Origin: a bacterium
Lineage (GTDB): Bacteria; SZUA-182; DTGQ01
Length of the DNA stretch: 5,639 bases
Reading direction: 5' to 3'
NCBI GenBank assembly: GCA_023512255.1
Contig: JAILZY010000147.1
Coordinates: forward strand, 1 to 5,639
How positions within the stretch are numbered: the stretch's first letter is position 1; each line of letters starts with the position of its first letter. The notes beneath the pieces are model-generated. The model saw only the letters and a program-made list of their open reading frames with translations, was not told where the DNA came from and searched no databases. Position numbers and translations under genes: made by a program. Positions 1-5,284 of the stretch are shown one piece after another.

Positions 1-2
1 AT

Positions 3-47
3 GTTAACTCACACATTTTGTGAAAGTTAACTGATTGATTTTAAAAT
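3..47 (+). promoter_or_regulatory. Interrupted palindrome with weak promoter-like hexamers
   Basis: GTTAACT (3-9) pairs with AGTTAAC (25-31), and inside it CACA (12-15) pairs with TGTG (19-22), all centred on base 17. A weak sigma-70-like pair overlaps it: TTGTGA (18-23) and TAAAAT (42-47) with an 18-nt spacer. It could be an operator over a distant promoter for the cytochrome operon, or the 3' end of whatever lies to the left. No T-run follows, so a classical terminator is unlikely. The palindrome is seen directly; the promoter reading is weak inference. Confidence 0.3.
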
Positions 48-143
48 GCAATCAAGCATTCGCTCTGGCATAAGGATGTTATAACTCATTATGGTTGGTC
101 GCTTATCAATCCGACGCCGCGACGGCCAGCCAGAAGGCACAGA

Positions 144-330: not shown

Positions 331-879
331 ATGATCAGCAGGTGGAAAGCTGCTCGGGCAGTTTGGGCTTATTCAGCCATAATCATCAGTATCTTTAGTA
401 TCTTTCTCGTTATCTTTCTCGTCTTGGCCGGTGCGCATTCAGTCTCTTTTGCTCTTCCCCCTTTGCCTTTTTACCTCACCAGCAGGGAGGAGCAGATCGA
501 GTCCTTCCCCTGCCAAGACTGCCATCAGGATCAATTGGAGGAAAGCGAACCGAGCGAGCAGCGAGAGCATGCCCAAATTTCGGTTCAACATGGGGGGATG
601 CGCTGCCTTGGCTGCCATGATCAAAAAGACAGGAATACCTTGCGAGCGGTTGATCAGCGCCAGGTTAGTTTTTCCAATATGGAACAGATGTGCGGCGGCT
701 GCCATGCGGCTGATTACCAGGATTGGACAAAGGGAATCCACGGTAAACTGGTAGGCTCCTGGCGAGGCGTTCAGCGGGGGTTAAGGTGCGTAGAATGCCA
801 TGATGTTCATCAACCAAGGCCTATGGCCCTAAAACCAGAGCGCCCCCCTGATCCACCGGCTGCCTCACGTGCTAAATGA
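331..879 (+). CDS. Membrane-anchored tetrahaem cytochrome c
   Basis: A 182-residue c-type cytochrome with four CXXCH haem sites at residues 61-65, 92-96, 121-125 and 153-157. One hydrophobic segment (about 13-35) after a basic N-terminus should act as a signal anchor, placing the haems in the periplasm. Besides the haem-motif histidines (65, 96, 125, 157) the soluble domain has exactly four others (80, 87, 137, 160), enough for bis-histidine ligation of all four haems. The segment around 128-145 (YQDW...GIHGK...GSW) and the Pro-rich tail resemble small cytochromes encoded beside ferredoxin and NrfD genes. It probably carries electrons between the Fe/S protein encoded downstream and soluble cytochromes. 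ATG 331 is chosen because a TAA at 325-327 blocks upstream extension; GGAGG (312-316) is 14 nt away, longer than usual, while AAGG (326-329) is only 1 nt away. Family-level function is well supported; partner and direction are inferred. Confidence 0.9.
   Translation: MISRWKAARAVWAYSAIIISIFSIFLVIFLVLAGAHSVSFALPPLPFYLTSREEQIESFPCQDCHQDQLEESEPSEQREHAQISVQHGGMRCLGCHDQKDRNTLRAVDQRQVSFSNMEQMCGGCHAADYQDWTKGIHGKLVGSWRGVQRGLRCVECHDVHQPRPMALKPERPPDPPAASRAK
388..422 (+). repeat. In-frame tandem duplications in the cytochrome membrane anchor
   Basis: AGTATCTTT occurs twice in tandem (388-396, 397-405), and an overlapping 12-nt unit TATCTTTCTCGT is repeated exactly (399-410, 411-422). The second duplication encodes IFLVIFLV in the transmembrane helix, lengthening it by four residues without a frameshift. 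The identity at third codon positions points to a recent duplication rather than selection for similar residues. Confidence 0.8.
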
Positions 880-912: not shown

Positions 913-1018
913 ACAATTTTCGCTCTTATTTATTAGCTACCATTGAGAGACATAACCCTAATAAGAGCTAAGCTCCTTTGAGGGTTTATGGTGTCTGATA
1001 TATAAGAGCGACAATTTT
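913..1018. mobile_element. MITE-like insertion of 90 bp with 8-bp target duplication
   Basis: ACAATTTT occurs at 913-920 and again at 1011-1018. Immediately inside these copies lie perfect 9-bp inverted ends, CGCTCTTAT (921-929) and ATAAGAGCG (1002-1010). The similarity extends to 16 bp with two mismatches (921-936 against 995-1010). Direct repeat, inverted repeat, 90-bp body, inverted repeat, direct repeat is the signature of a small non-autonomous transposable element. The body holds no meaningful reading frame. It does hold a second hairpin (951-959 with 981-990, one bulged T) and an internal copy of ATAAGAGC (961-968) that could pair instead with the left end (922-930 with 960-968). From memory, 8-bp target duplications and GGCTCTT-like ends recall the ISL3 family; this parentage is a guess. 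Removing the element and one direct repeat leaves a gap of 125 bases between the cytochrome and Fe/S genes. With its competing pairings, an RNA attenuator is an alternative reading, but it would not explain the flanking 8-bp direct repeats. Confidence 0.7.
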
Positions 1019-1102: not shown

Positions 1103-1987
1103 ATGCTGACACGAAGGGAATTTATTAAAAAATCAGCTCAAGGAGCCTCTTTACTCACTCTAGGCTCATTGATCAGCGGCTGCTTTTCGAGAGGTTTTTT
1201 TCAAAACCATCTCAGGCGGATGAGCCGTGAGGAAGCGAAGCGAACCATACAAAGGCTAGAGGATGAATATCGGCACGAATTTTCTCGGCAGGTCAAGGTC
1301 AAGGATACGCCGGCTCAGCAGGATGTTTTGTTTGGTATGGCGATTGATCTTTCCAAATGCATCGGTTGTCGAAGGTGTGTCTGGGCTTGCACAAAAGAGA
1401 ATAACCAATCCAGAGATCCTCAGATCACCTGGATTGATGTGTTTGAAATGAAGCATGGCTCCTCCATGGAGCTTGCCCTTGATCAAGGAACCCGCTACTA
1501 TCGACGAGAGATGGTTCCGGCAAAAGGGCATTTTTATCTGCCGGTTCAGTGCCAGCAGTGCCAGGACCCACCCTGTGTGAAGGTCTGTCCGGTGAAAGCC
1601 ACCTGGAAAGAGCCGGACGGAATCATAGTTATCGACTATGACTGGTGTATCGGCTGCCGCTATTGTCTGGCCGCCTGTCCTTACGGCGCCCGAAGATACA
1701 ACTGGGGCCGTCCTACTCTGCCTGCTGAGGAGCTAAACCCTAATGTTCACCTTTTAGGGAACCGGCCAAGGAGTAAAGGTGAGGTTGAAAAATGTACCTT
1801 CTGCCTTCACCGAACCAGAGAGGGGCTCTATCCTGTTTGTGTCGAGGTCTGCCCTACCGGTGCCCGCAAGTTCGGCAATCTCCTTGACCCCAAAAGTGTT
1901 ATCAGGAAAATCCTGGCTGAGAAAAATGTCTTTGTGCTCAAGCCAGAATTGAACACCAAACCAAGATTTTATTACTATTTCAGCTAG
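1103..1987 (+). CDS. Tat-exported 4x[4Fe-4S] ferredoxin-type electron-transfer subunit (DmsB/HybA/HmcB-like)
   Basis: A 294-residue iron-sulfur subunit of the family that pairs with NrfD-type membrane proteins. Sixteen cysteines form four complete cluster motifs: residues 86/89/92/96, 150/153/158/162, 182/185/188/192 and 231/234/246/250 (the last with 11 residues between its inner cysteines). All expected ligands are present, so four [4Fe-4S] clusters are predicted. The N-terminus carries a twin-arginine motif TRREFIK (residues 3-9) and a hydrophobic stretch ending in ISGC with Cys27, which fits a lipobox. The mature protein may therefore be a Tat-translocated lipoprotein on the periplasmic side. 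Unlike HybA, it shows no C-terminal membrane helix. The tail (about 276-294, KPELNTKPRFYYYF) resembles HmcB-like proteins. It should relay electrons between the NrfD-like subunit and the tetrahaem cytochrome. ATG 1103 is supported by GGAAG (1092-1096, 6-nt spacing) and by placing the Tat motif at the N-terminus. Confidence 0.93.
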   Translation: MLTRREFIKKSAQGASLLTLGSLISGCFSRGFFQNHLRRMSREEAKRTIQRLEDEYRHEFSRQVKVKDTPAQQDVLFGMAIDLSKCIGCRRCVWACTKENNQSRDPQITWIDVFEMKHGSSMELALDQGTRYYRREMVPAKGHFYLPVQCQQCQDPPCVKVCPVKATWKEPDGIIVIDYDWCIGCRYCLAACPYGARRYNWGRPTLPAEELNPNVHLLGNRPRSKGEVEKCTFCLHRTREGLYPVCVEVCPTGARKFGNLLDPKSVIRKILAEKNVFVLKPELNTKPRFYYYFS

Positions 1988-2026: not shown

Positions 2027-3298
2027 GTGAAGACAAAAGGATCAAATCTACCCAACTTGCTATTTACAGGCGGGGCAGGCTATTATCTCTGGCTGTCTTT
2101 TCTGGGTGCGGCAGTAGTCGCAGGTGCGCTGGCCTATATCTTGCAAATCCGCCATGGCCTTATCATCACTGGCATGCGCGATCCTTTCCCTTGGGGGCTA
2201 TATATTGCCAATTTTACCTTCCTGGTAGGCATAGCTGCGGCCGCTGTCCTGGTGGTCATTCCCTCCTACCTCTACCATTATCAGCCGCTGAAAGAGGTCT
2301 GTCTGATTGGAGAGTTTCTGTCTGCATCCTCAATCGTCATGGCCCTGCTCTTTGTGGTCATTGATCTTGGCCGGCCCGACCGCTTCTGGCATATTATCCC
2401 CGGCTTTGGTCTGCTCCACTTTCCCCAATCGGCCATGGCCTGGGACTGTCTGGTCCTGTGGGGGTATCTGGTGCTGAACCTGCTTCTATGCGGCTATATC
2501 TTGCGATGTAAATACCAGAGCAGGCAGCCCTCCACCGCTCTGCTCATGCCTCTGATTTACCTTTCCATTCTCTGGGCGATTAGTATTCACACCGTAACCG
2601 CCTTCATCTACAGCTCGCTCTCCTCCCATCCCACTTGGCATCAGGCGATTATGATGCCTCGCTTTTTAGCCTCGGCCTTCTCCTCCGGGCCTGCTTTTCT
2701 GATCTTGATACTTCAGATTATAGGCCGCTGTACCCGCTGGCCGGTAGAGAAAAAAGCGCTCCACAAACTGGCCGAGATCATGACCATAGCCTTATTCTTC
2801 AACCTATTTATGCTTGGAGCTGAGATTTTGGTTGAAACTTATGCCGCAGCCCATCATCTTACCCACCGCCTATACCTTCTCTTCGGGCTTCAGGGACATA
2901 CTGCCTTGGTCGCTCCCACCTGGTTAGCGATTGGAGCTCAAGTGTGCGCTCTCATTCTCTTGCTATTTCCAAAGGCTCGCCAAAACCTGAAGCTGCTCAA
3001 CCTCTGCTGCACAAGTATCTTTGTCAGTATCTGGTTTGAGAAGGGCATCGGGCTTCTTGCCTTGGGGTTTATCCCCTCATCGAGCGGGGAAATCTTCGAA
3101 TATCACCCCACTCTTGCTGAAATAACCATCACTGCTGCCATCTGGGCTATCGGCCTGCTCATCTTTACTCTGCTGGTCAAACTGGCCGTGGCCGTTGAAA
3201 CCGGGGCTCTCCAGCAGGCAGCACATGCTCAAGGCGAGCAGCCGAAAAGCAGAGAAAGCGAGCAAATCGGGCAAGAGGCAAAGCCGCTGTCCGGGTAG
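2027..3298 (+). CDS. NrfD/PsrC-family polytopic membrane subunit (HmcC/DsrP/ActC-like)
   Basis: A 423-residue integral membrane protein with about ten predicted helices (roughly 20-40, 57-82, 92-113, 137-160, 171-197, 211-234, 248-270, 292-314, 322-348, 362-390) and a hydrophilic charged tail (391-423). Family-like motifs include RDPFPWGLYI (51-60), the IDLGRPDRFW segment (112-121), AMAWD (136-140), the IHTVTAFIYSS segment with His188 (187-197), and GFIPS...Y.PT near 347-362. Ten helices and these motifs point to the larger HmcC/DsrP/ActC branch rather than the eight- or nine-helix NrfD/PsrC form. Members bind menaquinone or ubiquinone near the periplasmic face and pass electrons to or from the partner Fe/S subunit; some are proposed to translocate protons. 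It follows the Fe/S gene by 39 bases and is almost certainly co-transcribed with it. It starts with GTG. Quinone species and direction are unknown. Confidence 0.92.
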   Translation: MKTKGSNLPNLLFTGGAGYYLWLSFLGAAVVAGALAYILQIRHGLIITGMRDPFPWGLYIANFTFLVGIAAAAVLVVIPSYLYHYQPLKEVCLIGEFLSASSIVMALLFVVIDLGRPDRFWHIIPGFGLLHFPQSAMAWDCLVLWGYLVLNLLLCGYILRCKYQSRQPSTALLMPLIYLSILWAISIHTVTAFIYSSLSSHPTWHQAIMMPRFLASAFSSGPAFLILILQIIGRCTRWPVEKKALHKLAEIMTIALFFNLFMLGAEILVETYAAAHHLTHRLYLLFGLQGHTALVAPTWLAIGAQVCALILLLFPKARQNLKLLNLCCTSIFVSIWFEKGIGLLALGFIPSSSGEIFEYHPTLAEITITAAIWAIGLLIFTLLVKLAVAVETGALQQAAHAQGEQPKSRESEQIGQEAKPLSG

Positions 3299-3481: not shown

Positions 3482-5284
3482 ATGATCAAAGAGAATGAAG
3501 GGAAAATCGAGCATCTGATAACTCTGGGAAAAGAGCGGGGAGGCTACCTGACCTATACCGAGGTCAATGATTTTCTTCCTGATGAGCCTATTTCTCCAGA
3601 TGAGCTCGATGATCTGGTGTCGGAATTAGAATCAGAGGGTATTGAGCTGGTTGATACCCTTGCCTCGGTAGGTGCAAGTAGAAAGTCTGTCGGGGAAGCT
3701 GACCTTTTCTCTTTTGAAGATAAAATCGAAGAAGACGAAAAAGAGAATGCCGCTTCAGAGGAAGAAGCCGAGGAAGAGGAAGCAACCCGAGACTATGCCC
3801 GTCTGTACCTAAAAGAGATGGGCGCGGTGCCTCTTTTGACTCATGAGGAGGAGATCAGCCTAGCCAAACAGATCGAAGAGGGAGAAACAGAAGTGATCAA
3901 CGCCGCGCTTTGCTCTCCCCTGACGATCAAAAAAGTGGCTGAATTTGCTGACCTACTTCGGTCAAAACTGGAAGATACTGAGGAGCTGGTGAAAGAGCTA
4001 GAGGCGGAAAATTATCTGGTAGAAGAAGAACTTGATGTTCCCTTGCTTCTCTCTCTGATTGAGCAGGTAGAAAAGCTGCGCAGCCAGGAGCAGCAGATGG
4101 CCGCAGAGAAAATAGCCGCTGCGGCAGAGCAACCCCAGCAGCAGGCTGCCTGGGCCAGGCGGCTGGAGAAAGAGGGCCAGCCAAGGAAAGAGAAGATCGT
4201 TTCTCTGCTGAAGCAGATAAATCAAAGAGTTAGGTTTATTGATAAGATCATCCAGAGGTTGAAAGAGCTAGAGGCTGAAGCAGCAGGAGCCGAGCAGGAG
4301 ATAACAAAAGCCACAGAGCAACTCAGCGCCCTCTCAGGGCAACGGCGGCAAGCCCTTACCACTACTCAGCTCACAGCCGCCGAAGCCGCAGATGAGCACC
4401 ACCTAGAGGCTGAGCAACACCTAGAGACCGAGCAGAGGAAATACCATCTTATCATCGCCGAGGCTCAGGAGAGGATCAGGCGGGTAGAGGAAGAAGCCAG
4501 GCTATCACGAGATGAGCTAAAGCGCACCGTGCAGGTCATAAACAGTGGCGAGAGCAAAGCCCAGATGGCCAAAGATCGTATGACCAGGGCCAACTTGCGC
4601 CTTGTGGTCTCGATTGCCAGACGCTACACAAACCGCGGTCTGCCCTTCCTCGATCTGGTCCAGGAGGGGAATATCGGCCTGATGAGGGCGGTGGATAAAT
4701 TTGACTACACCATGGGGCACCGATTCAGCACCTACGCTACCTGGTGGATTCGCCAGGCAATCACCCGAGCCATTGCTGATCAGGCCCGAATTATCAGAAT
4801 TCCAGTCCATATGACCGAGACAATCACCAGGCTGATCCGCGCCTCAACCGCCCTATCTCAAGAGCTGGGACGCCAGCCTACGGCTGAGGAGATTGCCGCC
4901 CGGCTGCACATTCCGGTGGATAAGGTGAGCAAGGCGCTTGAAACCGTCAAAGAGCCAATCTCCCTAGAAACCCCTATCGGGGAAGAGGAGGATAGCTACC
5001 TAGAGGATTTTGTCGAGGATAGAAAAATCGCCTCCCCGGAAGAGGCGGCCACGAGGCGAAATCTCTCGGAGCAGACCCGCAAAGTACTCGCTACCCTAAC
5101 CCCCCGTGAGGAGCAGATTTTACGAATGCGCTTTGGGATTGATCAGCCCGAAGACCATACCCTGGAGGAGATCGGAGCGAGGTTTCACGTTACCAGAGAA
5201 CGTATTCGGCAAATTGAGGCCAAGGCCCTGCGCAAGCTGCGCCACCCCTCCCGCTCCGCCCAGATAAAGGAATTCGTGAAGTAG
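3482..5284 (+). CDS. rpoD: RNA polymerase primary sigma factor RpoD (sigma-70)
   Basis: A 600-residue housekeeping sigma factor that directs core RNA polymerase to -35/-10 promoters. Region 1.1 spans about 5-60 ([19 protein letters not shown]), followed by an acidic linker (79-100). Region 1.2 covers about 102-134 ([12 protein letters not shown]). A long non-conserved region (about 140-363) precedes region 2 (366-445). Region 2.4 [11 protein letters not shown] keeps the Gln425 and Thr428 used for -10 recognition, and His443 and Glu446 match the extended -10 residues. Region 3 follows (about 450-515), then region 4 (529-595), whose helix-turn-helix [20 protein letters not shown] holds the Arg572/Glu573/Gln577 contacts for the -35. 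The presence of region 1.1 and the full region 4.2 argues for the primary factor, not an alternative one. The non-conserved region resembles Desulfobacterota-type RpoD at its ends ([33 protein letters not shown]), but residues about 205-340 are unusually Ala/Glu/Gln-rich and probably coiled coil. AAAGGA (3472-3477) precedes ATG 3482 by 4 nt. dnaG, a frequent neighbour, is not directly upstream. Confidence 0.97.
4394..4429 (+). repeat. 18-nt in-frame tandem duplication in rpoD
   Basis: Bases 4394-4411 and 4412-4429 are identical at 15 of 18 positions and encode EHHLEA followed by EQHLET (residues 305-316). The duplication lies in the non-conserved region of the sigma factor, where length change is tolerated, and adds about two helical turns to the predicted coiled coil. 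Confidence 0.65.

Follow-up and report, generated by a model that had tools for sequence, protein, structure and literature searches.

A 90-bp element in a cytochrome-DsrO spacer very probably belongs to a multicopy MITE family of its genome

What is the 90-bp inverted-repeat stretch that lies between two genes of a redox operon, and how did it come to be there? The window, that is, the whole stretch of DNA analysed, is 5,639 nucleotides long and makes up an entire contig (C6) of a 3.83-Mb draft genome in 172 contigs. An original prediction, made from the letters of the window, had described a MITE-like element placed between the cytochrome and Fe/S genes, and this is indeed where the stretch lies, flanked by the genes for a multihaem c-type cytochrome and a DsrO-like protein (Table 1). 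The predicted geometry was exact to the base: 8-bp direct repeats (ACAATTTT) adjoin the 90-bp element without a gap, and its ends (CGCTCTTATTTATTAG / CTGATATATAAGAGCG) are perfectly inverted over 9 of 9 bp and match at 14 of 16 when extended. The body had also been called non-coding, and no ORF of at least 60 aa among those of the window covers it. As a single strand, the element folds on itself over its whole length, with energies of -34.4 kcal/mol (z -5.7) for RNA and -16.5 (z -5.2) for DNA. This structure is far beyond chance, since it not only folds in this manner but recurs elsewhere in the genome as 90 bp of 92-99% identity bounded by exact 8-bp duplications that differ in sequence.

Table 1. 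Coordinates of the element and of the genes in the window
Feature	Position	Strand	Basis or remark
Multihaem c-type cytochrome	331-879		four CXXCH motifs
Left target-site duplication ACAATTTT	913-920	.	sequence; matches family A target consensus A..AT..T
Left terminal inverted repeat CGCTCTTATTTATTAG	921-936	+	first 9 bp perfect vs right end
90-bp MITE (very probable), family A short form	921-1010	+	own-genome copies; end-to-end hairpin
Right terminal inverted repeat CGCTCTTATATATCAG (- strand reading)	995-1010	-	sequence; recurrence in genome
Right target-site duplication ACAATTTT	1011-1018	.	sequence
DsrO-like Fe/S protein	1103-1987		195.9 bits, slightly below curated cut-off 200
DsrP (DsrP/NrfD)	2027-3298		above its cut-off
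RpoD	3482-5284		

Further copies of 921-1010 were to be expected from the original prediction, and they are abundant. A DNA search of the element's own genome returned 149 candidates, with full-length matches 85-100% identical among the 40 scored, and the perfect 16-base left end occurs at more than 80 places among the genome matches listed. From stretches fetched around left-end matches, with the ends held fixed, we recovered 80 copies that were intact at both ends. Exact 8-bp duplications flank 52 of these and duplications with one mismatch another 14, so that 66 copies have at most one mismatch; random pairing of flanks from different copies gave 1.2% exact and 1.0% one-mismatch pairs (2.2% together). 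No exact duplication of 9 or 10 bp was found among the 80 copies. The duplications are richer in A+T than the flanks (82% vs 63%) and follow the consensus A..AT..T, with A at position 1 in 54 and T at position 8 in 56 of the 66. That the 8-bp repeats belong to a longer conserved repeat unit was excluded for the copies examined, their sequence differing from site to site. A profile search of 775,523 sampled bases yielded 27 distinct copies; extrapolated to the genome, this is about 130. All but one (26/27) lie outside predicted ORFs, though coding sequence makes up about 82% of the sample; when the fetched copies were tested independently, open frames were present on both sides in 2 of 60, as against 70 of 272 nearby control points. 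A length of exactly 90 bp is shared by nine of the recovered copies, which are mutually 92-99% identical, the window copy being 95.6-98.9% identical to the other eight. This short form is outnumbered by long forms, with a mode of 113 bp and a length of up to about 130, in which the right half is partially duplicated in tandem (GGGTTTATGG..TCTGATATA repeated).

We then compared occupied and empty sites. The orthologous spacer between cytochrome and DsrO measures 47 bp in a genome of the same genus (G001) and is without the element there (DsrO 83% identical), and in a same-family genome it measures 27 bp (DsrO 64% identical). The empty site anticipated in relatives was thus found in part: their spacers are without the element, but they have diverged too far for the exact 8-bp target of the window copy to be aligned. 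A second repeat allows the comparison at the nucleotide level. It has ends of its own (CAGATGTTCCCCA...TGGGGAACATCTG), and its copies include those at L202 2463-2635 and L226 4655-4763. Because of these ends and of a 9-bp duplication (GAAATAAGG) around the L226 copy, we take it as a second MITE family. The host repeat reads GGTAAAAAAACAATAGTTTAAAG when empty and GGTAAAAAACAAT[element]AAAACAATAGTTGAAAG when filled, and the L202 and L226 copies (on contigs C24 and C77, respectively) are uninterrupted at the site, with a single copy of the target.

The strong fold and the position inside an operon spacer are also what favours a different account, in which the stretch is a structured cis-acting RNA of the redox operon, regulatory or processing, and palindromic by chance. 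According to the original prediction, such an RNA would be present at the same place in all relatives and have covarying stems. Neither was found: the element is absent from the orthologous place in the relatives, and the consensus pairs in 51 long copies show 20 one-sided changes, 0 two-sided changes and 18 broken cells. The hairpin therefore appears to reflect the inverted repeats and not selection on an RNA. Moreover, the roughly 130 copies stand beside different genes within differing 8-bp duplications, and the window has no Rfam match above gathering score. We regard an operon RNA as almost certainly the wrong explanation.

A prokaryotic MITE is shorter than 500 bp and non-coding, with terminal inverted repeats of about 4-30 bp (PMC10969869). 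The window element is short, non-coding and bounded by inverted ends, and the set of copies to which it belongs shows duplications of constant length, dispersed and mostly intergenic copies, and empty sites. With a probability of about 0.95, we conclude that the window element is, as first predicted, one member of a family of non-autonomous DNA transposons (MITEs), a family that we call A. A DDE-type transposase acting in trans would recognise the CGCTCTTAT ends, the element would insert into 8-bp, AT-rich targets, the cuts being staggered by 8 bp, and host repair would convert this stagger into the flanking 8-bp duplication, copies then persisting almost exclusively between genes. The simplest account is that the window copy arrived in the cytochrome-DsrO spacer once this lineage had split from the genus-mate. 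Neither the 90-bp nor the 113-bp body was found in the 59 other genomes searched, nor was the exact 24-mer of the left end found in the genome_contigs or viral_contigs collections. The end pattern CGCTCTYATWTATYAGNCNCCAT had one match in these collections, at 4348-4370 of a contig of a Paenibacillus MAG (L158, JAILZT010000041.1), which is probably a chance match. It is thus well supported that family A is genuine, that it is not matched in the collections searched and that it is of a well-known kind.

Which transposase could have moved family A? We found no full IS with CGCTCTYATWTATYAG-type ends in the 172-contig draft using three Pfam models and end patterns that covered most of the non-MITE sequence space. 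No end pairs at IS distance that separate MITEs would leave unexplained were recognised among the genome matches listed, and a scan of the retrieved sequence found no paired ends 0.5-4 kb apart with a duplication. An ISL3-family transposase is a tentative candidate: the duplications are 8 bp long and AT-rich, the ends contain GCTC (within GCTCTT), and G001 has one ISL3 transposase (PF01610, E 2.5e-72), whose element has ends GGCTCWACCATWTT and a duplication AGAAAAAT. However, PF01610 has no match in the own genome, a draft from which contigs may be missing. ISL3-type ends are GG-initial, and whereas the G001 element starts GGCTC, the MITE starts CGCTC and shares little else with it besides GCTC. 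Since no transposase with matching ends was found and the ISL3 and Tn5-type models have no match in the own genome, ISL3 parentage of family A is unproven. A helper of the IS4/Tn5 type seems improbable. The ends of family A do resemble the Tn5 end CTGACTCTTATACACAAG, with the CTCTTATA motif and an initial C, but PF14706 has no match in the own genome or in three related ones, and none of the three own-genome matches to PF01609 has such ends: the C29 copy has 18-bp ends that start CCGGACA, and the C107 and C135 copies are not bounded on both sides by CGCTCTTAT ends. Target duplications close to 8 bp are also known for IS1595, IS66, IS256 and ISAs1. The same holds for IS6 (PMC7986276). The helper may reside on an unbinned contig, be extinct or come from another family, such as one of these.

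Two candidates were rejected. The IS4-like transposase on contig C29, encoded 47 bp from a family A copy, was dismissed as the parent, as its element has 18-bp ends of its own with a CCGGACA start and stops about 30 bp before that copy. The sequence CGCTCTTATAGCCTCC, present at three contig ends, was dismissed as an IS end, as it sits in apparent coding sequence. At L086 900-2184, an IS4-like element with 18-bp ends that start CCGGACA has its transposase frame broken by a frame shift, and about 30 bp past its right end there is a family A copy.

Family A and the second MITE family are found nested at five loci, where a family A copy occupies one position of the CAGATGTTCCCCA-ended repeat with the duplication AAAACAAT. 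The inner copies at L007 (90 bp) and L037 (110 bp) point one way and those at L060 (111 bp), L170 (130 bp) and L025 (119 bp) the opposite way, and their orientation is independent of the similarity among the host repeats. Rfam gave no match above gathering score on the nested loci. The pair might have spread as one composite, with the inner element flipping and changing length in place by means of its own palindrome, which we consider rather unlikely; the nested pair would then be a small module, invertible and variable in length, that another MITE carries. Alternatively, the site may have been hit repeatedly, or inner copies may have been exchanged by gene conversion.

Several features of family A have counterparts in described MITEs. 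The Chunjie MITE of Geobacter uraniireducens likewise has tens of short copies, located between genes, conserved at their ends and flanked by duplications, occurs in size variants and has one copy within an operon; compared by description only, it is longer (178-235 bp vs 90 bp for the family A short form) (PMC10969869). QMITE1 and QMITE2 of Coxiella burnetii similarly represent several MITE families in one genome, with size variants, a whole-element fold and duplications of 7-9 bp, comparable to the 8 bp of family A, but they are larger (about 190-400 bp) and the ends of QMITE2 are longer (23-29 bp) (PMC10969869). The Correia element of Neisseria, like family A, exceeds 100 copies and forms a hairpin, and it is reported to invert, as the inner copies of the nested pairs occur in both orientations; its length is about 204 bp, however, and effects through promoters, IHF sites and RNase III are known for it (PMC10969869). 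Small elements inserted into each other are also seen in the BOX/RUP/SPRITE clusters of Streptococcus pneumoniae (PMC10969869), whereas the family A nested pair recurs at five loci with the inner element at an identical position.

Does the window copy affect the operon? The cytochrome-DsrO gap is 223 bp, of which the element and one duplication make up 98, compared with 47 bp in the genus-mate. If transcribed, the element would give a long RNA hairpin; RNase III cleaves the transcripts of Correia elements (PMC10969869), and by this analogy the window copy may influence expression. A terminator was not found, however, and the sole promoter-like match, at 1073-1102 (10/12), is not within the element; chance alone would give 0.5 such matches. 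We thus think it unlikely that the element has taken on the added role of regulating or splitting the operon, whether as promoter, terminator or RNase III site.

Established knowledge of MITEs is left unchanged by family A. What is documented is a MITE-rich genome from a lineage that is uncultured; it has several families, insertions nested in one another and sites that are naturally empty. In genomes of this kind, a spacer, a small-RNA call or a predicted promoter may be transposon DNA. Other bodies with CGCTCTTAT ends occur in the own genome, namely a 140-bp element (C90:37497-37636, duplication AATTTAAT) and relatives on C158, C32 and C35, and G001 has cousin elements, about 120, 180 and 400 bp long, whose ends read CGCTCTCATTTATYAG. 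Since cousins with such ends are present in both genomes, the end type is probably older than the species split. We also noted in G001 a multicopy, apparently non-coding element of about 400 bp with ends CGCTCTCATTTATTAGACACCAT (L101 1500-1897), inside which several contigs end (L105, L106, L109 and L110).

Repeats of this sort partly explain why the assembly is fragmented: the window's contig is one of several that end in them. The first 75-77 bases of the window (1-75) correspond to the right part of a different repeat, likewise multicopy and about 120 bp long. At least five more copies of it are present in 775 kb; it has inverted ends like CCTGAATCCAGAGCGAA / TTCGCTCTGGCATAAGG and is probably a further MITE family. 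As contig C10 begins with the identical 77 bases, the assembly evidently broke at the window start. At the other end, the contig stops (5563-5639) within a repeat TAGTGTCTGTCCGAAA...TTTCGGACAGACACTA that measures roughly 220 bp in full (L211, L023); at L023, it is inserted into a family A copy. Finally, a 30-base stretch at 77-106 of the window (TTATAACTCATTATGGTTGGTCGC...) recurs at several places in the genome.
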